DNA of 64,000 bases from Hymenobacter sedentarius. Lineage in GTDB: Bacteria > Bacteroidota > Bacteroidia > Cytophagales > Hymenobacteraceae. A model generated the notes under the pieces. The model was not told where the DNA came from. It did no database searches and worked only from the letters and a program-made list of their open reading frames with translations. Shown here in pieces: positions 35,947 to 51,675 of the stretch (the first letter of the stretch is position 1; the number at the start of each line of letters is the position of its first letter). The DNA is taken from NCBI RefSeq assembly GCF_001507645.1, contig NZ_CP013909.1, forward strand, positions 4,402,001 through 4,466,000, written 5' to 3'. Both the position numbers and the translations under genes were made by a program.

Positions 35947-38900
35947 ATGCCCGCAGAGCTGTTGCATCTTGCCCACCCGAGTACCAGCGCTTCTTCCCTG
36001 CATGCATCTGAGCCCGGCCAGCCGGCTGGCCTGGTTCGCCGGAGCCCGGCCGGGCGGGTGCGGCCGGCGTTGGGCTGGCTGCTTACGCTGCTACTCCTGC
36101 TGCTGAGCGGCGCGGCCACTTCGGCGCTGGCGCAAGGCATGCCGCCCCCGGAGTGCGCAGCCGATGAGAAGTTTGCCAACACCTGGTACTTCGGCTTTAA
36201 GGCGGGGCTGGACTTCAACCAGGCCTCGGCCGACTCCCTGCCGAAGGTGCTTACCAACGGGGCGATGGATGCCCCCGCCGGCTCGGGGGTGATGTCGGAC
36301 AAGGACGGCAAAATTCTCTTTTACAGCAACGGCGAAACCGTGTGGAACGGCGACGGCACCGTGATGACCAACGGCACGGGGCTGGCAGGCAACCGCTTCA
36401 CCACCGACGGCCCCCTGCCCATCCGAAAGCCGGGCATCACGCAGCCGGGCCAACCGACGCGCTACCTGCTCTTCACCCTGAAAGATACCGTGGGCCTGAG
36501 CTACTCGGAAATCGATATTCCCGCCGGTGGTGGACCGGGTACCGTCATCGCCGCTACCAAAAACACGCCCCTGGCCCGCGGCACGGCGGAGAAGATAACG
36601 GGCGTATTTCATAAAAACGGCTGCGATATCTGGGTTATCACGCACGGCTGGGGCGATGCCAAGGCCGGCAATAACAACCGGGGCGACGCCTTTCTGGCCT
36701 ACCGCGTAACCGTGGCGGGTGTACAGCCTGTTCCCATTATTTCGCCCATCGGCAGCCTGCACGCGCCAAGGATAGCGCCCCTGGGCTACAAAGGCCAGAT
36801 GAAAGTAACCCCCGATGGCCAGCGGCTAGCCCTGGCCCGCTACAGCGAAGCGGTAGGCGACAGCAGCAGCACCGTCGAGCTGTTTGGGTTTGATACCGGC
36901 ACGGGCCAGGTGAGCGCCAACCCACAGGTCCCATTCATCGTGGACAAGGGCGAAGGGAAATACTATGGGGTGGGGTTTTCGCCCGGCCGCTATCTCTATG
37001 CCACGGTGCGCAACCCGCCCAAGCTGCTGCAATTTGATATCAGCGGCAATGGGCCGGTTACCAGAAAGGATATTCCGCTCAAGCAGAAGACCCCGGCCGA
37101 CCTGGGCTCGCTGCAGGCCGCGCCCGATGGCAAGATTTACGTGGCCCGCGACAACCAGCCCGCGCTGGGCGTAATCCCCTACCCCGACTCGCTGGGGGCC
37201 AAGGTTCGCTACGCCGATGACAGCCTGCGGTTGGGCGGCCGCCTGAGTGGCCTGGGCCTGGTCAACTTCAATCAAAGCTCCCTGCTGCGTGTGGGGCCGA
37301 GTGCGCAGATAACGGGTTGCCGGCAAATCGCATTCAAGGCCCCGCCCATTGACTTTGATAAGAAGGTCTATGCCTGGACGTTTGGCGACGGTGCCACCTC
37401 CGCCGATGAGAATCCCGTTCATATTTACGCTACGCCCGGCAACTACACTGTCACGCTACGCATCACGACCGAGTGCTTTTGCCGCGAAAGCTCGGGCATT
37501 ATCCAAGTGCCGGACTTGCCCAAGCCGGGTAGCATTGCGGCTCCCCAAACGCTGTGCGCTGGAAAAGCGCCGGCCCTGCTTACCAGTGCTACCAATGCTT
37601 CGGGCGATGCCGGCCTCCCGCTCGTCTACCAGTGGGAATCATCAACGGATAACGCCACCTTCACCCCTATCGGTGGGGCTACCGGGCCAACTTACCAGCC
37701 AGCGGCAACGCTGCCGGCCGGCACTACTTATTTCCGGCGGAGCGTGCAACTGCTTCTGCCTGACCGTTCCGGGCCTTACTGTACCTCTACCCAAACTGCT
37801 TCGGTAGCCATCACGGTCTTACCCGCTCTGACGGCCGGCACCATCGCCGCCGACCAAACCGTGTGCGCCGGCACCGCGCCCGCCCCGCTCACCAGCACCG
37901 CGCCGGCCACGGGCGGCACCGGCACGTTTGCCTATCAGTGGGAAGCTTCAAATGATAACATCACCTGGACGGCCATTTCCGGCGCTAACAACGACGCCTT
38001 CACGCCCGGCCCGCTCACGGTTACCACCTTGTTTCGGCGCCAGGTGCGCTCCGGCGCCTGCACCACCCCACCCTCCAATGTAGTGACGCTTACCGTGGTG
38101 CCGGCCCTGACGGCCGGTAGCATTGGGACCAACCAAACCGTCTGCGCCAGCGGTACCGCCGCTTCCCTCACCAGTGAAACCCCAGCCACCGGCGGCGCGG
38201 GCACCATCGCCTACCAGTGGGAGTCATCGGCAGATAACGTGACCTGGGCGCCCATCGCCGGGGCCACCGGCCCAACCTACGCACCGGGCCAGCTGAATTC
38301 GACCACCTACTTCCGGCGCCGTTCGAGCTCGGGCAGCGGCTGCGCACCGGTCTTGTCCAATGTCGTCGCCATCACCGTCCTCCCAACCCTAACGGCCGGC
38401 ACCATCGGCGCCGACCAGACACTGTGCCCTGGCACTCCCCCGACGCCGTTGACGAGCACGGCAGGAGCCAGCGGTGGCAGTGGCAGCTTCAGCTACCAGT
38501 GGGAATCTTCACCGAATAATTCGAGCTGGACGCCCATTGCTGGCGCGACCAGCTCAACTTTTGCGCCTGGTCCGCTCGCGGCTACCACTTACTTCCGGCG
38601 CAGCGTGACGTCGGGGGTTTGCGGGCCCGAGTACACACCATCCGTGACCCTGACGGTGCTGCCGGTGCTGACCGCGGGCAGCATTGCGGCCGACCAAACC
38701 ATCTGTGCGGGGGCCCCACCGGCGCCGCTCACCAGCGCCACGGCGCCCGGCGGCGGTACGGGCACGTTTGTGTATCAGTGGGAATCTTCGCCCGATAACA
38801 CCACTTTCACGGCCATCGGGGGGGCCACTAGCGCCGACTATGCGCCCGGCCCGCTTACGGCCACAACTTACTTCCGCCGTCGGGTGACGTCGGGGACTTG

Positions 38901-40836
38901 CGGGCCCGAATTCTCGGCTTCGGTTAAGATAACCGTATTGCCAGCGGTAACGGCCGGTAGCGTTGCCGCTGACCAAACCGTGTGCCCCGGGGTTGCTCCG
39001 GCGCCGCTAAGCAGTACGGCCCTGGCGAGCGGCGGCACGGGCGCTTTTGCCTACCAGTGGGAATCCTCCCCAGATAACACAAACTGGTCGGCCATAGGCG
39101 GCGCTACCAGCCCAACTTTTGCGCCGGGGCCACTCACAGCCACCACCTACTTCCGGCGGCGAGTCACGTCCGGAACCTGCGGGCCTTTATCGTCCAATGT
39201 CGTCGCCATTACCGTGCTCCCGGCCCTTACGGCCGGCACCATCGCCGCCGACCAGGCTATTTGCATTGGCGCCACTCCGGCCCCGCTCAGCAGCACGGCC
39301 GCGGCCGGTGGCGGCACCGGCAGCTTCAGCTACCAGTGGGAATCTTCGCCGAACAACAGTTCCTGGACCGCCATTCCGGGCGCTACTGGCTCAACTTTCG
39401 CGCCCGGCCCGCTCACGGCTACTACGTATTATCGGCGCCGCGTAACGTCAGGGACTTGCGGACCGGAGTATTCGCCTTCCGTGGCCATAACGGTATTGCC
39501 GGCGCTGACCGCCGGTAGCATTGCGACCAACCAAGACATCTGTGCTGGGGCTACGCCGGCGCCGCTCACCAGCACGGCTGGGCCTGGCGGCGGTACCGGC
39601 ACGTTTGTGTATCAGTGGGAGGCATCGGCAGATAGCACAAACTGGAGCGCAATAAGCGGCGCGACCAGCCCAACTTTTGCGCCGGGCCCGCTCTCGGCTA
39701 CTACCTATTTCCGGCGCCGGGTGACGTCGGGCACCGGCACCTGCTCCACGCAGGTTTCCAACGCGGTGGCGGTGCGGGTGCAGCCCATCGTGACAACCGG
39801 CGTGACCCTGGCGGCCCCGCCCGTGCAGTGCGCCGGCACGGCCCTGACCTTTACGGCCGTGCCTACCAACGCGGGCACGGCGCCCACGTTCCGCTGGCTT
39901 GTTAACAACGTGGCCGTAGCGAGCGGGCCCACATTCACCAGCAGCACGCTGGTCACCGGCGACGTGGTTCGCGTGGAGCTGACGCCCACGGCGGGGCTGT
40001 GCAGCACCGGCCCGGCGGCGGCCTCCGTGACGGTGACGCGTACGCCCACGCCGCTGCCCACGCTCGCCATTGCCGTGCAGCCGGGCGGGCCGGTTTGCCC
40101 GGGCGAGCCGCTGACGTTCAGCATCACAAGTATAACCGAAGCCGGCCCGGCTCCTACTTATCAGTGGCAGGTGAATGGCAACGACGTGGCGGGAGCCACA
40201 AACTCGGTATTTACCAGCACAACCCTGCGCGACGGCCAGACCGTGACGCTGCGCCTGCGCACGGCCAATTTGTGCGGGCAGCCCGTCACAGCCGTTTCCA
40301 ATAGCGTAGCGGCGCGCATTCTTCCGCCGGTTGACGTGGATGCCGGCCCCGATAAGGAGATTCTGGCCGGCACTTCCGTGGTGCTAGATGGCAGCGCCGA
40401 TGGCAACTACCCCGTGACGTGGACACCGACGGTGGGGCTGAGTTTTCCGGGCAATGACCGGCTGCATCCCATTGCCTCGCCCACCGTGACCACGACCTAC
40501 ACCATCACGGGCGGTACCGGCGGCTGCGCCGACTCCGACCAGGTGACCGTGACTGTGCGCCCGCCCATCCGTATTCCCAATGCCTTCACACCCAACGGCG
40601 ATGGCCGCGACGACACCTGGCAGATTGAGTTCATCGAGCAATTCCCCGACAATACGGTGAGCGTGTTCAACCGCTGGGGCAACCGGATTTTCTCGGCCAA
40701 TAATTACAGCCGGGCCAATGAGTGGCGCGGCGACATCAATGGGCAGCCCGCGCCGGTGGGCACCTACTACTACGTCGTCGTCACGAAGGGCCCGCTGGGC
40801 AGGTCCTACAGCGGGTCGATTACGATTTTGTATTAA
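35947..40836 (+). CDS. Giant repeat-rich surface protein with T9SS type B (gliding-type) C-terminal domain
   Basis: 1629 residues. A hydrophobic signal at about 43-62 (LGWLLTLLLLLLSGAATSALAQ) follows an unusually long basic start; a GTG at residue 39 could be the true start. Residues about 70-470 resemble a beta-propeller (repeated KILFYSNGETVWN, KVTPDGQRLALARYS, QAAPDGKIYVARD). A PKD domain follows (AWTFGDGATSADENPVHIYATPGNYTVTLRI). One diverged and seven regular 93-residue Ig-like repeats follow, each with TAGxIxxxQxxC, YQWExSxDN and a second Cys. The final about 90 residues (IPNAFTPNGDGRDDTWQIEF ... FNRWGNRIF ... GTYYYVV) are the gliding-motility-associated type B T9SS signal. It probably acts as an adhesin, exported with the SprF-type protein downstream. 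Confidence 0.88.
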   Translation: MPAELLHLAHPSTSASSLHASEPGQPAGLVRRSPAGRVRPALGWLLTLLLLLLSGAATSALAQGMPPPECAADEKFANTWYFGFKAGLDFNQASADSLPKVLTNGAMDAPAGSGVMSDKDGKILFYSNGETVWNGDGTVMTNGTGLAGNRFTTDGPLPIRKPGITQPGQPTRYLLFTLKDTVGLSYSEIDIPAGGGPGTVIAATKNTPLARGTAEKITGVFHKNGCDIWVITHGWGDAKAGNNNRGDAFLAYRVTVAGVQPVPIISPIGSLHAPRIAPLGYKGQMKVTPDGQRLALARYSEAVGDSSSTVELFGFDTGTGQVSANPQVPFIVDKGEGKYYGVGFSPGRYLYATVRNPPKLLQFDISGNGPVTRKDIPLKQKTPADLGSLQAAPDGKIYVARDNQPALGVIPYPDSLGAKVRYADDSLRLGGRLSGLGLVNFNQSSLLRVGPSAQITGCRQIAFKAPPIDFDKKVYAWTFGDGATSADENPVHIYATPGNYTVTLRITTECFCRESSGIIQVPDLPKPGSIAAPQTLCAGKAPALLTSATNASGDAGLPLVYQWESSTDNATFTPIGGATGPTYQPAATLPAGTTYFRRSVQLLLPDRSGPYCTSTQTASVAITVLPALTAGTIAADQTVCAGTAPAPLTSTAPATGGTGTFAYQWEASNDNITWTAISGANNDAFTPGPLTVTTLFRRQVRSGACTTPPSNVVTLTVVPALTAGSIGTNQTVCASGTAASLTSETPATGGAGTIAYQWESSADNVTWAPIAGATGPTYAPGQLNSTTYFRRRSSSGSGCAPVLSNVVAITVLPTLTAGTIGADQTLCPGTPPTPLTSTAGASGGSGSFSYQWESSPNNSSWTPIAGATSSTFAPGPLAATTYFRRSVTSGVCGPEYTPSVTLTVLPVLTAGSIAADQTICAGAPPAPLTSATAPGGGTGTFVYQWESSPDNTTFTAIGGATSADYAPGPLTATTYFRRRVTSGTCGPEFSASVKITVLPAVTAGSVAADQTVCPGVAPAPLSSTALASGGTGAFAYQWESSPDNTNWSAIGGATSPTFAPGPLTATTYFRRRVTSGTCGPLSSNVVAITVLPALTAGTIAADQAICIGATPAPLSSTAAAGGGTGSFSYQWESSPNNSSWTAIPGATGSTFAPGPLTATTYYRRRVTSGTCGPEYSPSVAITVLPALTAGSIATNQDICAGATPAPLTSTAGPGGGTGTFVYQWEASADSTNWSAISGATSPTFAPGPLSATTYFRRRVTSGTGTCSTQVSNAVAVRVQPIVTTGVTLAAPPVQCAGTALTFTAVPTNAGTAPTFRWLVNNVAVASGPTFTSSTLVTGDVVRVELTPTAGLCSTGPAAASVTVTRTPTPLPTLAIAVQPGGPVCPGEPLTFSITSITEAGPAPTYQWQVNGNDVAGATNSVFTSTTLRDGQTVTLRLRTANLCGQPVTAVSNSVAARILPPVDVDAGPDKEILAGTSVVLDGSADGNYPVTWTPTVGLSFPGNDRLHPIASPTVTTTYTITGGTGGCADSDQVTVTVRPPIRIPNAFTPNGDGRDDTWQIEFIEQFPDNTVSVFNRWGNRIFSANNYSRANEWRGDINGQPAPVGTYYYVVVTKGPLGRSYSGSITILY
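37828..39783 (+). repeat. Seven tandem 279-bp coding repeats
   Basis: Unit starts are at 37828, 38107, 38389, 38668, 38947, 39226 and 39505; all units are 279 bp except the second, which is 282 bp. Each encodes a 93-94 residue Ig-like domain. DNA similarity between units is high, with near-identical runs around the YQWESSPDN and YFRRRVTSGTC codons. A diverged eighth unit precedes them from about 37525. Confidence 0.85.
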
Positions 40837-41111: not shown

Positions 41112-42083
41112 ATGAAAAGAGTCCTACCGCTATTGCTGCTCCCGCTCCTGTTCCTGGCCAGCGCGCCGGCCCAGGCCCAGCAGCAGGCGCAGTACAGCCA
41201 GTACATGAATAATAATTACATCCTCAACCCGGGCACCACGGGGGTGGAGGATTATATCGACGTCAAGTTCAGCTACCGCACTCAGTGGACGGGCCTGGAA
41301 GGGGCGCCGAAAACCTACTACGCCAGCGCCAGCTCCTCGCTGGGCAAATGGCGCAGCACCCCCAAGCGCACCATCCACGACCGGCGCCGGCCGTTTCACG
41401 CAATCGGCGGCCTCGTGTACAACGATGTGACCGGCCCCACGAGCCGGACGGGCGCCTACCTTTCCTACGCCTATAACATAGTCTTGATGCCCGACCTCCG
41501 GCTGGCGCTGGGCATGTCGGCCGGCATGCAGCAGTTTGCCGTGGATGGACAGCAGCTGCACTTCTTCGACCCCACAACCCGGGCCGCCAGCGCCGCGTCG
41601 CGGGTGCTGGATGGGTCGATTGGTGCGTGGCTGTACAGCTCCCGGTTTTACGTGGGCGTATCGGGTGCGCAGCTGCTCGGCAATCGGCTCAACTTCGCAT
41701 ACGGGCCCGGCTCGCTGGAGGCCGGCACGGGCAACACGCTGAAGCGGCACTACTTCGCCACGGCCGGGGTGCGCGTGCCAATCAACGACGACTGGTCGCT
41801 GGTGCCGTCGGTGCTAGTCAAGGCCGTGAAACCGGCGCCGCTCTCGGTCGATATCAACGCCAAGCTCAAGTACCAGGACCTGCTGTGGTTCGGCGCGTCT
41901 TGGCGGGCCTTCGATTCGGCCGTGGCGATGGTGGGCCTCAGCTACGAGCAGTACACGCTGGGCTATTCCTACGATGCGGGCCTCTCCGAACTAGCCGGTT
42001 ACCACGGCGGCAGCCACGAGGTACTGGTGGGGCTGCGCATCAAGAAAAAAGCCCAGATAGTGTGCACCAACCGGTTCTGGTAG
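41112..42083 (+). CDS. PorP/SprF-family type IX secretion outer-membrane protein
   Basis: 323 residues. Signal peptide MKRVLPLLLLPLLFLASAPAQA, then QQQAQYSQYMNNNYILNPGTTGVEDYIDVKFSYRTQWTGLEGAPKTYYASASS, the hallmark N-terminus of PorP/SprF. The rest is a 14-strand-type barrel pattern (AIGGLVYNDVTGPTSRTGAYLSYAYN, LALGMSAGMQQF, FYVGVSGAQLLG, HEVLVGLRI). In Flavobacterium, SprF-like proteins are needed for export or attachment of type B cargo such as SprB encoded just upstream. The same order here makes the 1629-residue protein the likely cargo. The gap of 275 bp between them holds nested palindromes. Confidence 0.9.
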   Translation: MKRVLPLLLLPLLFLASAPAQAQQQAQYSQYMNNNYILNPGTTGVEDYIDVKFSYRTQWTGLEGAPKTYYASASSSLGKWRSTPKRTIHDRRRPFHAIGGLVYNDVTGPTSRTGAYLSYAYNIVLMPDLRLALGMSAGMQQFAVDGQQLHFFDPTTRAASAASRVLDGSIGAWLYSSRFYVGVSGAQLLGNRLNFAYGPGSLEAGTGNTLKRHYFATAGVRVPINDDWSLVPSVLVKAVKPAPLSVDINAKLKYQDLLWFGASWRAFDSAVAMVGLSYEQYTLGYSYDAGLSELAGYHGGSHEVLVGLRIKKKAQIVCTNRFW

Positions 42084-43351: not shown

Positions 43352-44257
43352 CTACCCGATGGCAGCGGTGGGCACAATTTTCTTCACCAGCCCTTGCAGC
43401 ACCTTGCCGGGGCCGCACTCCACAAATTCGGTGGCACCGTCGGCGGCCATTTGCTGCACGGCCTGAGTCCAGCGCACGGGCGCGGTGAGTTGGCGCAGCA
43501 GGTTGGCCTTGATTTCGGCCGGCGACGAGTGGGGCAGCGCATCCACGTTCTGGTACACGGGGCAGCGGGCCTCGCCGAAGGTGGTTTTCTCGATGGCTTC
43601 GGCCAAGGCGGCGGCGGCGCTTTGCATCAGGGGCGAGTGGAAGGCGCCGCCCACGGGCAGCGGCAGGGCCCGCTTGGCGCCGGCGGCTTTCAAGGCTTCA
43701 CAAGCCCGGGCCACGCCCTCGGCCGAGCCGGAGATGACGAGCTGGCCGGGGCAATTGTAGTTGGCGGCCACCACCACGTGGCCGGCAGTGGTGATTTCCT
43801 GGCAAATGCGCTCCACGGTGCTGTCGTCGAGCCCCAGGATGGCGGCCATGGTGCCCGGCTGCTCCTCGCAGGCAGCCTGCATGGCCTGGGCGCGGCGCGC
43901 CACCAGCCGCAGGGCGTCTTCGAAGCGGAGCACGCCGGCGGCTACCAAGGCCGAAAACTCGCCTAGGGAGTGGCCGGCCGTCATGGCGGGCTGCAGCTCG
44001 GGGCGGGCCACAAATTGAGCTACCGAATGCACGAAAATGGCCAGCTGGGTCACGTCGGTGCGGCGCAGGTCCTCGTCCGAGCCCGTGAACATGATGTCGG
44101 TCAGGCTAAAGCCCAGGATGTCGTTGGCTTGGGTGAGCAGGGCGCGGGCGTCCAGGTTCTGGTCGAACAGCTCGCGGGCCATGCCCGGAAACTGGCTGCC
44201 CTGGCCGGGAAAAATGACGGCGGTTTTAATGGATTCGGAGGCGCTGGTGGGGTTCAC
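43352..44257 (-). CDS. fabD: Malonyl-CoA:ACP transacylase
   Basis: 301 residues starting at the GTG at 44257; upstream in-frame residues to 44311 lack conservation. It moves malonyl from CoA to acyl carrier protein to feed fatty acid synthesis. Motifs: TAVIFPGQGSQFPGMA near the N-terminus, nucleophile Ser97 in AGHSLGEFSALVA, catalytic His207 in VGGAFHSPLM, and the C-terminal FVECGPGKVLQGLVKKI. No other fab genes are adjacent. The gene is followed by the GT-C gene with a 2-nt gap. Confidence 0.95.
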   Translation of the reverse strand: MNPTSASESIKTAVIFPGQGSQFPGMARELFDQNLDARALLTQANDILGFSLTDIMFTGSDEDLRRTDVTQLAIFVHSVAQFVARPELQPAMTAGHSLGEFSALVAAGVLRFEDALRLVARRAQAMQAACEEQPGTMAAILGLDDSTVERICQEITTAGHVVVAANYNCPGQLVISGSAEGVARACEALKAAGAKRALPLPVGGAFHSPLMQSAAAALAEAIEKTTFGEARCPVYQNVDALPHSSPAEIKANLLRQLTAPVRWTQAVQQMAADGATEFVECGPGKVLQGLVKKIVPTAAIG

Positions 44258-44370
44258 GAGGAGGCGGGATTGTAAATGGAAAGGCAATAGTGCGGCCCAA
44301 CGGCCGGCCAACTACGGTTGTGGTTGGGGCTGCAAGCTGCACAAAAGCGGCCAACCCCACAAATCAAGAC

Positions 44371-44404: not shown

Positions 44405-44430
44405 ATTCTAGCTCAAGCTCAAACCCTGGG

Positions 44431-47379
44431 TTAGCGCACTATCTCGACCCAGCCCTTGTAGGTTCGTTTGGTATTGGCAAAGTCGGCAAACTCTACCTCC
44501 GCCAGGTAGTAATAAATGCCATCGGCCACCTTGGCGCTACGGCCCGCTTCGCTCACGGGCCCGCCGCCGTCCCAGTTGATGAGCACGCGGTCGGCGGCCG
44601 TGGTCGTGTTCTCGAAGACCTTGACGCCCCAGCGGTTGAAGGCCTGGAAGTGGATGCGCCGGATGGGGCTGTAGTTCTTGGGCCGGAACACGGCGTTCTG
44701 GTTGTCGCCGTTGGGGGTGAAGATGTTGGGCAGCTTGAAGAAGACACAATTGTCCTGGCAGGCCACGTTGCTCGTGTCGCTCACCAGCCCGCCCGGGGCC
44801 ACGGCCTGCACGGCGTAGCAGCCGCCGGAAAACTCCAGGTCGGCGTGCGTGTACGAAGTCTGCGCGGTGGTGGCCAGCAGCGTGAACGGGCCCGTGGGCG
44901 TGGGGCGGTAGTAGAGGCGATACGAAGCGATGGTGGCGTCGCAGCCGGCCGGCAAGGCGCTCAGGCGCCAGCTCAGGCGGTTACTGTAGCGCTGGGTCAG
45001 GGTCGGGAACTCGGCCAATCCGGCCAGGCTGTCGCAGTTCGTTGCCCGCAGCGAAAGCACCGGCTTGCACGGCGGCGAGATTAGCACGGAACACTGTTCC
45101 TGGCTCTTGTTCAGCAAGGAGCTGAGGTAGCCCGTAGGATTATACTGGCCCTCCGTGCGCACGTAGTAGCAATAGGTCTGCCCTTTCACCAGGGTCGTGC
45201 TCTTATCCACGTAAGTGCCGCCCGTGGCACCCGTGGGGGCCGTGGCAATCTGCACAAAAGCGCTGCCCGGCGTACCGGCCCGGCGGTAGATAACGACCGG
45301 CTTGGCCGAATTATCCCAGGGCACATTGTAGGTCCAGCTCACCGTAAAGGCTGTGGGCGGGTTGTTGGGCAAGGCCGTGACGCGCACACTGCTGGCTGGG
45401 CCCGACGTTTCCTTTACCTGTGGGCGGCCGTCGCTGAACGTGCGGATGAAGTCCAGCTTGTAGGTGTACTGCAGGTCCTGGGTGTTCAGGTTGGTGTCGA
45501 TGTAAGCCGTGTCGGTGAGGGCCGTGAAGGTGCGTACCGGCGCATAGGTAGTCGGCGCCAGCCCTTCGCCGCGCGACAATACATAAGAGAGCGCGCCATC
45601 CTGGACGGTACCCGCGGCGGCGCGCGGCAGCGTCCAGCGCACGGCGATGCGCCCGGTGGTAGTGCTGGTTTCTTCCACGTCAACGTTTTTCAGCAGCGCC
45701 GCGCGGCCACTAAAGCCCGCGCAGGCCTCCGCCGAGGCAATGCTGGCGCCGCCCGCAGGCAGCGGAAACTCGGCGTAGATGCGGTAGCAGTAGGTTTTGC
45801 CGCGGTCCAGCCCTTGGTTTACCCCGCCCGCCGATACGTTATTGTCGATGAAGGAAGTTGCAGAAGCGGCCACCGAACCAACTAGGGTGTAGCCCCACGC
45901 GGCCGGAATGCCGGTCTCGCAGGGGCCGGGCACCACGCTCGACGAATTCTCCCGCCGGTAGATGTAGATGCGCGAAGCATTGGCGCATTGGTAGGTGTTC
46001 CAGGTCAGCAGAGTCCGGTTGATGCCGGTGCTGGCATCGGGTACGGCTTTCAGGTTTTGGGGAGCAGGCCCGATGACGGTGATGCGCCAGGTTTTCTCGT
46101 CAATCAGCGGCGGGTTGGTGGGCGAGCCGCCGCTGCCGGCATTGTCCTGGGCCTTGAACACGACCAAGTAAGGCAGGCGGGCCACGTTGTTGCAGTCGGT
46201 TTGCCAGGAGAACGTACCCTGGGCCACCGGCGGCCCTTGGGTGGTCTGCCGGAACGTAGCCGGGGGAATGATGCCCGAGTACGCAAACAAGCTGATGGGT
46301 GTCGGAGCTGTGCTGCCCGGCGCTTCGCCGTCAATGGCCGAGACCTGGCCCGTGACGGGCTGCCCCGCTATCACGCAGATGTCGGCTGGAATCGTCAGCG
46401 TCGGCCGCAGGTTGTTGGTGGCCGAAACGGTGATTTCCATGTCGCGAATCACCTCGCCAATCAGGCGCCGGCCCAACGGTGTGCGCCGCCACTCCTCCAC
46501 CACCATGGCCACGTTGTAAATGCCCGCCTGCACCGGCGCATTCCACGTGATTTGGCCGGTGTTCACGTCCTGCACGAAGATAGCGGCGTCGCCTGCCTTG
46601 CCGGGCGGGGTTCCGTTGTAAGCAACCTGAATCGGCGGCGTGCCGGGGGTCACTAGAGGGTCATTGGGGTAACGATAGTTTGAGACCGTTAGCGGCACCG
46701 GCTTGTTGTCGCCGGTAGCGCCGGGGCAGGGCGGCGCTATCACGTCCTCTGAGAGCAAGGCATTTTTCTGACAGGTGCGCAAGTGGAAAGAAAGCGAGTC
46801 GCCGTCGGCATCGTACGCAGCGGGGTTGTGCAAAAACACTTGGCTCACGGCCCCTTTGTCCACGGCCGGAGCCGTAAGCACAGGCGAGTGGTTGAGCCCC
46901 AGAGCCGGGTCCAGGGTGATGCGCGTGCTGATGTAGAACGACTGGTTAATGGAGTTGTCCATGTTCAGCACCCCGCCAATGCGGTTTTCGCCGATGAAGC
47001 TGACGGTGTAGCTGCCGGCCGAAGGAAAAGTGTGCTCAAACAGGTAAATGTTGAGGCTGGTATCGGAGCTTCCCGGCACAGGCCGCTCGCCGCCCAGGCG
47101 GGGTACGCCGGGCGAGCAAGTCGAGGTGCCGTCCCCAAAAAAGATGATGGCCGAGGGCTGCTTGGTGGTCGATGCCGTTTTGGTGTAAAGCACCATCTTG
47201 AAAAACACCCGCCGGGGGTTGGGGTTGGCCGTGGTATCGACCTTGGCCTGAATGTCGCCCGCCCGGATGTGGCTGGCCCAAGCGGCCTGCGGCAGCAGGC
47301 TCAGCCCACTCAGCACCACCAATACCAGCAGCGCCACCCGCATTAAACCCCTGACCCAAAGCAGCGTAAATAGTATCAT
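44431..47379 (-). CDS. T9SS type B cargo protein, copy 1 of tandem pair
   Basis: 982 residues. Signal peptide to about residue 35 (LLPQAAWAS). The mature start SHIRAGDIQAKVDTTANPNPRRVFFK is shared with its neighbour. Cadherin/PKD-like and fibronectin III-like beta domains follow (AYDADGDSLSFHLR; ITWNAPVQAGIYNVAMVVEEWR; LTIPADICVIAGQPVTGQV; several YCYRIYAEFPLP/YCYYVRTEGQY segments). The C-terminus LPNIFTPNGDNQNAVFRPKNYSPIRRIHFQAFNRWGVKVFENT ... DGIYYYLAEVEF is the gliding-motility-associated type B T9SS domain. It should be on the cell surface; the ligand is unknown. It is a tandem paralog of the gene at 47640, with a nearly identical 530-bp block at the 3' end (44543-45072). Confidence 0.87.
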   Translation of the reverse strand: MILFTLLWVRGLMRVALLVLVVLSGLSLLPQAAWASHIRAGDIQAKVDTTANPNPRRVFFKMVLYTKTASTTKQPSAIIFFGDGTSTCSPGVPRLGGERPVPGSSDTSLNIYLFEHTFPSAGSYTVSFIGENRIGGVLNMDNSINQSFYISTRITLDPALGLNHSPVLTAPAVDKGAVSQVFLHNPAAYDADGDSLSFHLRTCQKNALLSEDVIAPPCPGATGDNKPVPLTVSNYRYPNDPLVTPGTPPIQVAYNGTPPGKAGDAAIFVQDVNTGQITWNAPVQAGIYNVAMVVEEWRRTPLGRRLIGEVIRDMEITVSATNNLRPTLTIPADICVIAGQPVTGQVSAIDGEAPGSTAPTPISLFAYSGIIPPATFRQTTQGPPVAQGTFSWQTDCNNVARLPYLVVFKAQDNAGSGGSPTNPPLIDEKTWRITVIGPAPQNLKAVPDASTGINRTLLTWNTYQCANASRIYIYRRENSSSVVPGPCETGIPAAWGYTLVGSVAASATSFIDNNVSAGGVNQGLDRGKTYCYRIYAEFPLPAGGASIASAEACAGFSGRAALLKNVDVEETSTTTGRIAVRWTLPRAAAGTVQDGALSYVLSRGEGLAPTTYAPVRTFTALTDTAYIDTNLNTQDLQYTYKLDFIRTFSDGRPQVKETSGPASSVRVTALPNNPPTAFTVSWTYNVPWDNSAKPVVIYRRAGTPGSAFVQIATAPTGATGGTYVDKSTTLVKGQTYCYYVRTEGQYNPTGYLSSLLNKSQEQCSVLISPPCKPVLSLRATNCDSLAGLAEFPTLTQRYSNRLSWRLSALPAGCDATIASYRLYYRPTPTGPFTLLATTAQTSYTHADLEFSGGCYAVQAVAPGGLVSDTSNVACQDNCVFFKLPNIFTPNGDNQNAVFRPKNYSPIRRIHFQAFNRWGVKVFENTTTAADRVLINWDGGGPVSEAGRSAKVADGIYYYLAEVEFADFANTKRTYKGWVEIVR

Positions 47380-47582
47380 ACCAACCTAATGAAGTAGGAA
47401 AAGAAGTGTGTCCGAAACTGCCCAATGCCCTTTCCGGCTTTCCGGCGAATGACCGCAAAGCCAGCAGGAAGCTTGAAAGTAAACAGTAATGGCGTGTTCG
47501 CAAGCCCACAACCGGCCAACTACCTCGGCAGTTGTAACAGCAGGCTGAGCAAAACCCGCAAACCCGCACAAATCAAGCCCAA

Positions 47583-47612
47583 AAAAGGCCGTTCCTGCAG
47601 GAACGGCCTTTT
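47583..47612 (-). terminator. Terminator of the 988-residue cargo gene
   Basis: 13-bp stem AAAAGGCCGTTCC / complement, loop TGCA, 28 nt after the stop at 47640. Homologous in position and flanks to 44371-44404. Confidence 0.85.
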
Positions 47613-47639
47613 ATTTTTATATACCAAATGGTTGATACG

Positions 47640-50606
47640 TCAGCGCACCACTTCCACCCAGCCCTTGTAGGTTCGTTTGGTGTTGGCAAAGTCGGCAAAT
47701 TCGACTTCGGCCAGGTAGTAATAGATGCCGTCCGATACCATGGGCGCCGTGCCCCCACCCGCTTCGCTCACGGGCCCGCCGCCGTCCCAGTTGATGAGCA
47801 CGCGGTCGGCGGCCGTGGTCGTGTTCTCGAAGACCTTGACGCCCCAGCGGTTGAAGGCCTGGAAGTGGATGCGCCGGATGGGGCTGTAGTTCTTGGGCCG
47901 GAACACGGCGTTCTGGTTGTCGCCGTTGGGGGTGAAGATGTTGGGCAGCTTGAAGAAGACACAATTGTCCTGGCAGGCCACGTTGCTCGTGTCGCTCACC
48001 AGCCCGCCCGGGGCCACGGCCTGCACGGCGTAGCAGCCGCCGGAAAACTCCAGGTCGGCGTGCGTGTACGAAGTCTGCGCGGTGGTGGCCAGCAGGGTGA
48101 ACGGGCCGGTGGGCGTGGGGCGGTAGTAGAGGCGATACGAAGCGATGGTGGCGTCGCAGCCGGCCGGCAAGGCGCTCAGGCGCCAGCTCAGGCGGTTACT
48201 GTAGCGCTGGGTCAGGGTCGGGAACTCGGCCAATCCGGCCAGGCTGTCGCAATTCGTCGCCCGCAGCGAAAGCACCGGCTTGCACGGTGGGCTGGTGAGC
48301 ACCAGGCACTGGATTTGGCTCCGGTTCAGGAGCGAACTGAGGTAACTGACGCCTGGGTACTGGCCTTCGGTCTGCACGTAGTAGCAGTAGGTTTCGCCCT
48401 TGCGCAAAGCCGGGTCGTTGTCTTGGTAAGTGCCGCCGGTGGCGGTGGTTGGGGCGGTGCTAATGCGCGTGAAGCCGCCCGTGTTGCCGGTACGGCGGTA
48501 AATAGCCGCTGGCTTCGCCGTGTTGTCCCAGGGCACATTGTAGGTCCAGCTCACCGTCACGCCCGTGGCGGCCACGTTGGCGGGCACGGCCGTGGTGCGC
48601 ACGCTACTGGCCGTGGGCGCCGCCTCCCGGATGGGGGCCCGGTTATCGGACGGCGGGAACGTGCGCACAAACTCCAGCTTGTAGGTAAACTGCTTGTCCT
48701 GCGTGTTGATGCCGGTATCGGTAAAGCACGTATCGGCCAGCGTCGTGATGGTGGCCACCGTAGTAAAAGTGGTCGGCGCCTGCCCTTCCCCACGCGAGAG
48801 CACATAGCTGGGGGTGCCGTCGAGGGTGGTGCCGGGGGCCTGGCGCGGCTTGGTCCAGCACACCTGGATTTGCCCGGTGGTCACGCCGGTGTTCTCCACG
48901 TCCACCTTCACCAGCCGGGAGGCGGCGCCGGGGAAGGAAGTGCAAGCCTCCTGCGAGGCTATGCTGGCTCCACCCGCTGGCAGTGGGAACTCGGCGTAGA
49001 TGCGGTAGCAGTACGTCTGGCCCCGGTCGAGGCCCAGCACCGTGCCGTTGGAGCTGGTGTTGTTGTCGGTGAAGGTGGTGGCATTGGCTGGCACGGAGCC
49101 TACCAGCGTGTAGCCTGCCGAGGGTGGAATCCCGGTTTCGCAGGGCCCGGGCTGGAAGCTAGACGGGTTTATTTTTCGGTAGATGTAGATGCGCGAGGCG
49201 TTGGCGCACTGATAGGTGTTCCAGTCCAGCCGCACACTGTTTGGGTTGGTGCCCGTGCCCACCGTGGGAGTGGCCCGCAGGTTTTGGGGAGCAGGCCCGA
49301 TGACCGTAATGCGCCAGGTCTTCTCGTCAATCAGCGGCGGGTTGGTGGGTGAGGGCGTAGGAGTATCCTGCGCCTTAAACACGACCAGGTAAGGCAGGCG
49401 GGCGACGTTGCTGCAGTCGGTTTGCCAGGAGAACGTGCCCTGGGCCACCGGCGGCCCGCTGGCCGTTTGCCGGAAGGTGGCCGGGGGAATAATGCCCGAG
49501 TACGCGAACAAGCTGATGGGCGTCGGGGCCGTGCTCCCCGGCGCTTCGCCGTCAATGGCCGAAACCTGGCCCGTGACGGGCTGGCCAGCAATCACGCAGA
49601 TGTCGGCCGGGATAGTCAGGGTTGGCCGGATGTTATTCGTAGCCGACACGATTATCTGCATGTCGCGAATGACCTCGCCAATCAGGCGCCGGCCCAGCGG
49701 CGTGCGTCGCCACTCTTCTATCACCATCGCCACGTTGTAGAACCCCGGCTTGACCGGCGCATTCCACGTAATTTGGCCGGTGTTCACGTCCTGCACAAAG
49801 ATGGCTGGCGCGCCTATCACGCCGGGCGGTACGCCGTTGTAGAAGACCTGCACCGGCGGGTTGCTGCTTCCGGTAATGATGGGGTCGTTGGGATAGTGGA
49901 AGTTAACGGTAGTTTGGGGAGCCGGCTGGTTGTTGCCAGTACCGGCACCAGAGCCTGCGCAGGGCGCCCCCCCCACTGTCCCATCAATGCCGGCCGGCAC
50001 CCACTGGCTGCTGCGCAGGTGGAAGGCCAGCGAGTCGCCGTCGGCATCGTACGCAGCGGGGTTGTGCAAATACACCTGGCTTACTCCGGCTTTGTCTACG
50101 GCCGGCGCGGTGAGCACGGGCGAGTGGTTGAGGCCCAGGGCCGGGTCCAGCGTGATGCGCGTGCTGATGTAGAACGACTGGTTGTCGGACTGGTCCATAT
50201 TGAGCACGCCCCGGTTGCGGTTTTCGCCGATGAAGCTGACGGTATAGCTGCCGGCCGAAGGAAAGGTGTGCTCAAACAGGTAGATGTTGAGGCTGGTATC
50301 GGGACTGCCCGGGATGGGCCGCTCGCCACCCAGGCGGGGTATCCCGTCTTTGCAGCTCGACGTGCCGTCGCCAAAAAAGATGGTCGCGGTGGGCTGTTTC
50401 ACACTCGACGCGTTGTCGGTATACAGCACCATCTTGAAAAACACGCGCCGGGGGTTGGGGTTGGCCGTGGTGTCGACCTTGGCCTGAATGTCGCCCGCCC
50501 GGAGGTGGCTGGCCCACGCCGCCTGCGGCAGCAGGCCCAGCCCCGCCAGCATAACCAGCACTACCCGCGCCAGCCCCCATACCCGAGGTAGTGTAAAGTG
50601 TATCAT
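47640..50606 (-). CDS. T9SS type B cargo protein, copy 2 of tandem pair
   Basis: 988 residues with the same architecture as the 44431 gene: signal to about residue 33 (LLPQAAWAS), SHLRAGDIQAKVDTTANPNP, cadherin/PKD-like and fibronectin III-like domains, and type B T9SS C-terminal domain (LPNIFTPNGDNQNAVFRPKN, FNRWGVKVFENT). The two proteins differ by scattered substitutions and small indels over the first three quarters, for example in the loop after FHLRSSQWVPAGIDGTVGG. The last roughly 180 codons before the final 35 are almost identical in DNA. It is the outer, 5'-most member of the pair and may carry the promoter for both, although each has its own terminator. Confidence 0.87.
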   Translation of the reverse strand: MIHFTLPRVWGLARVVLVMLAGLGLLPQAAWASHLRAGDIQAKVDTTANPNPRRVFFKMVLYTDNASSVKQPTATIFFGDGTSSCKDGIPRLGGERPIPGSPDTSLNIYLFEHTFPSAGSYTVSFIGENRNRGVLNMDQSDNQSFYISTRITLDPALGLNHSPVLTAPAVDKAGVSQVYLHNPAAYDADGDSLAFHLRSSQWVPAGIDGTVGGAPCAGSGAGTGNNQPAPQTTVNFHYPNDPIITGSSNPPVQVFYNGVPPGVIGAPAIFVQDVNTGQITWNAPVKPGFYNVAMVIEEWRRTPLGRRLIGEVIRDMQIIVSATNNIRPTLTIPADICVIAGQPVTGQVSAIDGEAPGSTAPTPISLFAYSGIIPPATFRQTASGPPVAQGTFSWQTDCSNVARLPYLVVFKAQDTPTPSPTNPPLIDEKTWRITVIGPAPQNLRATPTVGTGTNPNSVRLDWNTYQCANASRIYIYRKINPSSFQPGPCETGIPPSAGYTLVGSVPANATTFTDNNTSSNGTVLGLDRGQTYCYRIYAEFPLPAGGASIASQEACTSFPGAASRLVKVDVENTGVTTGQIQVCWTKPRQAPGTTLDGTPSYVLSRGEGQAPTTFTTVATITTLADTCFTDTGINTQDKQFTYKLEFVRTFPPSDNRAPIREAAPTASSVRTTAVPANVAATGVTVSWTYNVPWDNTAKPAAIYRRTGNTGGFTRISTAPTTATGGTYQDNDPALRKGETYCYYVQTEGQYPGVSYLSSLLNRSQIQCLVLTSPPCKPVLSLRATNCDSLAGLAEFPTLTQRYSNRLSWRLSALPAGCDATIASYRLYYRPTPTGPFTLLATTAQTSYTHADLEFSGGCYAVQAVAPGGLVSDTSNVACQDNCVFFKLPNIFTPNGDNQNAVFRPKNYSPIRRIHFQAFNRWGVKVFENTTTAADRVLINWDGGGPVSEAGGGTAPMVSDGIYYYLAEVEFADFANTKRTYKGWVEVVR

Positions 50607-50847
50607 ACCAGCCTGATAACAAGTAAAAACAAGTACAGCTCAAGTCCTGACCGCCGCCACCAGACCGCAGTAGAATCCTAACATTTAGCACCCCCAGCCG
50701 GTTATCCTACCAGCAAATCGTCCTAGTAAGACATAGTAAAGACATAACGCGCCTGTGCGGGTAAACGATGCATGAAGCGGATAGATTCACCACGCCGCGC
50801 ATTGTTTTTTGTAAAGAGTTCCCCGGCGGCGCTAATTGCCCCGGCAC
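50607..50847. other. Divergent intergenic region, no gene seen
   Basis: Upstream of the 988-residue cargo gene (minus) and sdhC (plus), 316 bp in all to 50922. It is more AT-rich than neighbours. Only the sdh promoter elements were recognised; no small open frame with codon character was found. Confidence 0.5.
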
Positions 50848-50879
50848 TTTGTTCGGTTAGCGGGCGGGGCCTACCTTTG
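50848..50879 (+). promoter_or_regulatory. sdh operon promoter: -33 TTTG and -7 TACCTTTG
   Basis: TTTG at 50848-50851, 20-bp spacer, TACCTTTG at 50872-50879: a full match to the Bacteroidota -33/-7 consensus. It lies 43 nt before the sdhC start, the best promoter in the window. Confidence 0.7.
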
Positions 50880-50922
50880 GCACCATAAACACACCTCTTC
50901 ATTTCCTCAGTTTGGCTACTAT

Positions 50923-51675
50923 ATGAGTTGGATAACAAAAACATTAACCAGCAGCATCGGCCGGAAGCTAATCATGTCCCTCACGGGCCTGTTTCTGTGC
51001 ACGTTCCTGGTGGTCCACCTTGTAGGAAACCTGCAGTTATTCAAGCACGACGGTGGGGCCGCGTTTAACGCCTACTCCCACTTCATGGGCACCAACCCGG
51101 TTATCCGCACCATCGAGTGGGGCCTGGTGCTGGGTTTTGGCTTCCACATTTACGAGGCTTTTGCCCTCACGCGCCGCAACAAGGCCGCCCGCGGCCACGG
51201 CTACGCGCAGTGGAAAGCCGAGCAAAACTCGGAGTGGACGTCCCGCAACATGGGCATCCTGGGCTCCATCATCCTGATTTTCCTGATTGTGCACCTCTAC
51301 AACTTCTTCTGGCGTGCCCGCTTCGGCGGCCTGGAGAAAATGGGCGGCGACAACCCCGAGTACCGCGACTACGATAACCTGTACATGGCCGTGGTTTCGT
51401 CGTTCCACATCTGGTGGTACGTGCTGCTCTACGTGGCTGCCCAGATTAGCCTTGGCTATCACCTGTGGCACGGCTTCCGCTCGGGCTTTCAGACCTTGGG
51501 CCTGAACCACCGCAAGTACATGCCGCTTATTAAGTATGCTGGCTACGTGTTTGCTGTGGTGGTGTCGGCCGGCTTTGCCGCCATGCCGTTATACTTTTTC
51601 CTGTTCACGAATGACCTGGGCGAACTGGCGTTGAATGCGCCGACTTTCGTTCACACCGTGGCCTCGGCTTTCTAA
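50923..51675 (+). CDS. sdhC: Succinate dehydrogenase/fumarate reductase cytochrome b558 subunit
   Basis: 250 residues from the ATG at 50923 (MSWITKTLTSSIGRKLIMSLTGLFLCTFLVVHLVGN), the usual start of the b558-type SdhC family; earlier in-frame residues are leader DNA. Five transmembrane helices. Histidines in VVHLVGN, FGFHIYEAF, LIVHLYNFFW and SLGYHLWHGF are positioned to bind two hemes b. It anchors the enzyme in the inner membrane and passes electrons to or from menaquinone. First gene of sdhCAB under the promoter at 50848. Confidence 0.93.
   Translation: MSWITKTLTSSIGRKLIMSLTGLFLCTFLVVHLVGNLQLFKHDGGAAFNAYSHFMGTNPVIRTIEWGLVLGFGFHIYEAFALTRRNKAARGHGYAQWKAEQNSEWTSRNMGILGSIILIFLIVHLYNFFWRARFGGLEKMGGDNPEYRDYDNLYMAVVSSFHIWWYVLLYVAAQISLGYHLWHGFRSGFQTLGLNHRKYMPLIKYAGYVFAVVVSAGFAAMPLYFFLFTNDLGELALNAPTFVHTVASAF

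Follow-up and report, generated by a model that had tools for sequence, protein, structure and literature searches.

Two adjacent genes of Hymenobacter sedentarius share a short segment near their 3′ ends that is almost identical in sequence within otherwise diverged copies, and the question is whether this identity arose by transfer of sequence between the genes or in some other way. The genes lie in a stretch of 64,000 nucleotides (contig NZ_CP013909.1, positions 4,402,001 to 4,466,000), referred to here as the window and used for all coordinates below. Both are open reading frames on the minus strand: gene A, the downstream copy (44431–47379; 982 aa), and gene B, the upstream copy (47640–50606; 988 aa). 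The genome is a single 4.87 Mb contig and these are its only full copies. By synteny the locus is conserved, with a fabD-like gene at one edge (43352–44311, minus strand) and an sdhC-like gene at the other (50836–51675, plus strand), the two neighbours being named by the look of their sequences and not by a family search. Each product ends in a profile match to the CHU_C type IX sorting domain, at residues 882–980 of A (44440–44736, minus strand; 52.5 bits, E = 5.4e-14) and residues 886–986 of B (47649–47951, minus strand; 48.3 bits, E = 1.1e-12). Both scores are above the curated cut-off of 27; those against TIGR04131 (24.4 bits for A and 23.5 bits for B) are below its cut-off of 35. CHU_C is the Pfam model of the same domain, and A and B are predicted to be type B T9SS cargo proteins. 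Structure prediction for B gives beta-strand domains arranged in a row (mean pLDDT 83.3), and its matches among PDB structures are generic strings of Ig/FN3 domains and nothing more specific. An Rfam scan of the window gave no match. We note that a PorP/SprF shuttle gene (41112–42083) about 2 kb from the tandem pair, one of just three in this genome, adjoins a gene for a 1629-aa CHU_C cargo (35947–40836).

The near-identical tract is at 44543–45072 in A and 47758–48287 in B (codons ~774–950), on the minus strand in each case, and takes in the last FN3-like domain and then the sorting domain over its first two thirds. As the sequence-only reading of this locus had reported, 526 of the 530 bases are equal, with exactly four mismatches and a longest identical run of 338 bp, and the flanks are diverged, identity between A and B elsewhere being mostly 64–89% when taken in windows of 150 nt, the lowest value being 59%. 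All four differences (positions 44881, 44893, 45037 and 45043 in copy A) are silent (pN = 0). The edges are sharp, with 33 mismatches in the 42 bases just below the tract and 36 in the 86 bases just above it, and none of 10,000 shuffles of the silent-site matches between A and B reached the observed segment score. When the tract is placed on the structural model of B, its left edge is in the linker joining strands 766–769 and 777–781, and its right edge is in a flexible sorting-domain loop (codons 946–954, pLDDT <50). The same reading had the tract include the secretion signal, which is correct for the first two thirds of the sorting domain but not for the last 38 codons, which are gene-specific and hold two strands of the domain. 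The 3′ tails (44431–44542 in A and 47640–47757 in B, both minus strand), consisting of the variable loop and the last sorting-domain strands, are unhomogenised and are 85% identical over a gap-free match of 105 nt. Each gene has its own related terminator, as had also been noted from the sequence: terminator-like hairpins on the minus strand lie at 44406–44369 after A and at 47583–47612 after B, the latter being symmetrical and listed by the hairpin scan on the plus strand.

The nearest relative, Hymenobacter sp. BT770 (L035), carries both genes, and the tract is already homogenised in the relatives used for comparison. Over 525 tract positions there are four differences within the window genome, eight within BT770, and 26–30 between the species. 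The corresponding pS values are 0.031 for the window paralogues, 0.054 for the BT770 paralogues and 0.146–0.170 for orthologues, and the relation is reversed outside the tract, where orthologues are at 0.24–0.25 and paralogues at about 0.46. Sites at which the four sequences divide two against two behave likewise: the tract has 22 species-type sites and no copy-type site, whereas codons 431–773 have 238 copy-type and four species-type sites, and the 3′ tail has 16 and two respectively. The change-over falls between codons 772 and 791 and again between codons 947 and 953. In a tree of codons 30–773 the first copies pair together (WIN_1 with BT770_1) and so do the second (WIN_2 with BT770_2), with support of 100; AU tests reject WIN_1 with WIN_2 for codons 30–770 (p 9e-5) and WIN_1 with BT770_1 for the tract (p 0.0009). 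The pattern is that of concerted evolution, in that paralogues within a genome are more alike in the tract than orthologues between species, the unconverted part shows the duplication to be older than the species split, and the tract is bounded and sharp-edged inside otherwise diverged copies. The silent-site, site-pattern and tree evidence thus supports gene conversion, the cause first suggested from the sequence, and the cross-species check proposed with it shows that the tract is not equally conserved, the copies within a genome resembling each other more closely than those of different species. Homogenisation has occurred since the split in both the window lineage and BT770 and, if a clock is assumed and copies diverge as fast as orthologues, the last event would fall in about the last fifth of the time since the split in the window lineage and about the last third in BT770. 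The edges are shared by the two genomes, which suggests that their common ancestor already had a homogenised tract that was later refreshed in each lineage.

Homogenisation recurs elsewhere in the genus. The gene was found in all 120 Hymenobacter genomes searched, with at least two matches in 43 of them. We analysed 33 intact within-genome pairs, 24 at the sdhC–fabD locus (including strain YC55, although fabD sits between its copies) and nine with the copies apart; ten genomes with broken or partial copies (G002, G010, G025, G027, G034, G061, G082, G106, G112 and G118) are uncounted. With a homogenised block defined by windows of 45 codons at silent identity of at least 95%, 18 of the 33 pairs have a block and 15 have none, so conversion is not obligatory; in trees, the tract sequences of 12 tandem pairs still follow the old 1|2 division. 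Cross-genome pairs, too, have raised silent identity in this region, by a mean of 0.12 over 4062 pairs, which indicates some silent-site constraint there and hence the need for a matched null. Eight of the 33 within-genome pairs lie above all cross-genome pairs in the divergence band to which they belong, the bands holding between 9 and 938 of the 4062 pairs: the window, BT770, G013, YC55, L047 (H. negativus), H. montanus, G050 and G055, with small bands (9 and 24 pairs) for the last three. The pairs of H. arizonensis, H. glacialis, G091 and G086 are near or above the 99th percentile of their bands. Most of the relatives are single strains with draft genomes, and BT770, as the sister of the window lineage, was left out of combined p-values. 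The homogenised copies in G050 and G055 sit on separate large contigs, and adjacency of the copies is therefore unnecessary.

Several individual genomes depart from the common arrangement. In YC55 (L098) fabD separates the second copy from the first, but their ends are nearly the same in sequence. No block in the genus is longer than that of H. montanus (L042), where the copies are identical over 1968 nt (codons 332–987 of the first copy); the record resembles a short-read assembly. The assembly of H. lapidarius (L050, G034:C117) breaks at residue 771 and resumes at residue 908, approximately the place of the window tract, as expected if its copies are identical there. Two records, L047 and L052, are both titled Hymenobacter negativus strain BT442 and have different versions of the gene pair that are distant in the tree; one of the titles may be wrong. 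The single-copy genes of H. jeongseonensis and IS2118 could conceivably be fusions of the front of B to the end of A by unequal crossing-over; the 114-nt tail is too short, and its tree too weak, to speak for or against this.

The blocks are concentrated towards the 3′ end of the gene, and the head is left out. Eleven of the 18 homogenised pairs overlap at codon 908, compared with a mean of 5.6 under random rotation (p 1e-4), and the per-codon stack of blocks is zero in codons 30–269 and rises to 13 at codons 870–949. Only one of the 18 touches codons 30–279, where 9.3 are expected (p 1e-4). These p-values assume independent pairs, an assumption that related species do not fully satisfy, and without BT770 and H. 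montanus (16 pairs) they are 1e-4 for the 3′ pile-up and 2e-4 for head avoidance. In the 15 pairs lacking a block the best conserved DNA is at codons 870–910 (78–83% nt identity), where blocks pile up in the others, and 70–78 insertion columns crowd at the right tract edge; both fit pairing that starts in the conserved stretch and ends at the loop. However, the last FN3-like domain, at 69–71% nt, is no better conserved than parts of the head and middle, and a stretch at codon 550 is conserved at 80% nt yet converted in few pairs. Local homology alone therefore fails to explain the polarity: it accounts for where the blocks are centred, but a further factor is required for the lack of conversion in the head. 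The N-terminal heads (approximately residues 34–278 of A, 46546–47280, and 34–279 of B, 49770–50507, both minus strand) are homogenised practically never in the genus. The sequence-only reading had taken these domains to be free to diverge, and in this it was mistaken, since they are under strong purifying selection (orthologue pN/pS of 0.08–0.11) and form two stable, old types (_1 and _2) across at least 11 species. Such selection fits two distinct head functions and the loss of converted heads.

We therefore regard repeated 3′ ectopic conversion between two old tandem type B T9SS cargo genes, with the heads kept separate, as very probably the correct account of this locus. An old tandem duplication would have produced two such genes between sdhC and fabD, and homologous recombination within the genome would have repeatedly copied the 3′ part from one to the other, such that this part evolves in concert and the N-terminal heads remain two separate types held by purifying selection. 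Pairing may start in the best conserved stretch, at the beginning of the sorting domain (codons 870–910), with conversion spreading about 0.5 kb upstream across the last FN3-like domain and stopping on the 3′ side at the indel-rich loop. Converted heads would be lost to selection on account of the different roles of the two heads.

A homologue is present in 103 of 118 genomes of the order, and outside the genus, in other families, eight genomes have two copies. Six of the eight are homogenised, with a 3′ body of about 400–720 codons that is identical or nearly so and a front that has diverged, in which identities per window vary and are mostly 49–80% nt. In one of these genomes (G226) identity falls to 81–85% in two body windows; in G184 the second copy is broken and the identities are 91% versus 75%. 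The two-copy genome G124 has no homogenised block. In G123 and G171, two members of one genus, the body is 60–68% identical between species and essentially 100% identical within each genome.

There are several other ways in which such a tract might arise. One would act on top of conversion: if cargos share a PorP/SprF shuttle, selection for identical sorting domains could retain conversions that keep the signals matched. Pairing between type B sorting domains and shuttles is specific, and a single shuttle can be shared among orphan cargos of this type (PMC12618676); the H. sedentarius genome has three PorP/SprF genes for 11 CHU_C matches. However, many pairs have sorting-domain starts that are 79–90% identical in protein, yet without homogenisation, and the 15 pairs lacking a block weaken the need for identical domains. 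Neither the remaining type B cargos of the genome are homogenised with A and B nor are the ends of its other tandem cargo pairs homogenised, and the tract omits the final 38 codons, which encode two strands of the domain itself. We consider a contribution of this kind rather improbable. A general homogenisation of all cargo sorting domains in the genome can be rejected, as adjacent related cargos lack near-identical ends: among ten other genome regions, five have adjacent related cargo genes (L141, L142, L146, L147 and L148) and none of the five has a near-identical end, and a DNA search of the whole genome gave only matches of 40–55 bp elsewhere. At L146, two neighbouring cargo genes have their C-terminal part in common, at 81% over 261 bp of DNA, whereas upstream of it their DNA does not match, an arrangement that looks as if a sorting domain had moved between genes.

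A recent, lineage-specific duplication of the second gene or of its end, with the fronts then replaced by divergent sequence, is much less probable still. It may hold for four genomes that belong to another family (f11), in which the heads too are more alike within than between genomes. But across Hymenobacter species the heads fall into a _1 and a _2 group and the genes keep their position between sdhC and fabD, both block edges are intragenic with a tail that is again of copy type, and in family f5 heads of one type are slightly more alike across species (0.61 and 0.64 for 1-1 and 2-2) than heads of different type (0.55 and 0.57 for 1-2). Purifying selection on the protein or the DNA, maintaining the block without any transfer of sequence, has next to no chance of being the cause. 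Conservation in the family is highest where the sorting domain begins, and the cross-genome excess of silent identity noted above points the same way. The silent-site comparison nevertheless rules it out: silent identity is higher within a genome than between species, which purifying selection cannot produce and conversion after the split can, and the absence of copy-type sites from the tract and the retention of the 1|2 split by 12 presumably functional tandem pairs likewise stand against it. An assembly artefact, in which a collapsed or misjoined repeat mimics identical copies, is just as improbable, for although short-read assemblies do break in the gene (at residues 771 and 908 in H. lapidarius and at 573 and 866 in G027, in both copies), the H. 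sedentarius genome is one contig with copies that differ at four silent sites, and pairs in very large contigs (9.0 Mb in G123, 7.0 Mb in G147 and 5.6 Mb in G226) show the same pattern.

The base composition of the blocks bears on whether bacterial gene conversion favours GC. GC3 in the tract is 0.937 in the window and 0.963 in BT770, against 0.812 and 0.797 elsewhere in the genes. In 17 of 18 block pairs the difference in GC3 between block and rest is above the mean for the same codons of 60–62 control genes, two truncated genes having been left out of the comparison, and in G013, G050, YC55, L047 and G011 no control gene has as high a difference. At 13 of 15 block edges GC3 steps up more than in controls (p 3e-4, two BT770 edges dropped), and blocks outside the tract tend to be GC3-rich (15 of 16 windows). 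However, polarised changes in the window genome and BT770 do not support a GC bias, as those in both copies (eight GC to AT, three AT to GC) resemble those in one copy (seven and two). Across genomes as well, windows of higher silent identity have higher GC3; at silent identity of at least 0.9 the increase is 0.066 within genomes (n = 67) and 0.045 across genomes (n = 12), and cause and effect may therefore be reversed. High GC3 may ease conversion, or codon selection may act better there. The two block tests and the edge test hint at GC-biased conversion; the polarised test does not. It is possible, although we hold this only tentatively, that recurrent ectopic conversion with a GC bias maintains this cargo family throughout the Cytophagales as a pair with 'two heads, one body', each converted block forming a GC3 island in its gene. 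The locus could in that case serve as a natural test system for GC bias in bacterial conversion, the unconverted head of each gene being the internal control.

We found no earlier report of conversion at this locus in a literature search, most subscription journals being outside its reach. Segmental conversion as such is known; here a single locus repeats it in many lineages, mostly towards its 3′ end, with the head almost always spared. Converted and unconverted halves are present in the same gene of the same genome, which makes recombination separable from selection, and the locus bears on how type B cargos lacking their own shuttle share one. A practical consequence is that the end of this gene will mislead trees, typing schemes and short-read assemblies that use it. 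Segmental conversion of outer membrane protein paralogues occurs in the babA/babB pair of Helicobacter pylori, with conserved ends and differing variable regions; the family and secretion route are different from those of A and B. Long-lasting concerted evolution of prokaryotic paralogues (tuf, amoCAB, psbA and others) is established (PMC6053082). The systems described there are similar in that paralogues are more alike than orthologues and recurrent gene conversion is proposed, and differ in that similarity extends over nearly the full gene, whereas here it is confined to the 3′ part with the head excluded; the tables of 26 genes in that study contain no T9SS cargo. Higher GC3 in recombining bacterial sequence, as outlined in PMC4450053, resembles the composition of our blocks, although that comparison is of recombinant with non-recombinant core genes across species and ours is of blocks with flanks within a gene. 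Surface proteins of Porphyromonas gingivalis, as portrayed in PMC5266723, are T9SS-exported, as A and B are predicted to be, and have modular domains altered by recombination, but there the exchange is mainly between strains and makes diversity, whereas here it is between paralogues within a genome and removes it.
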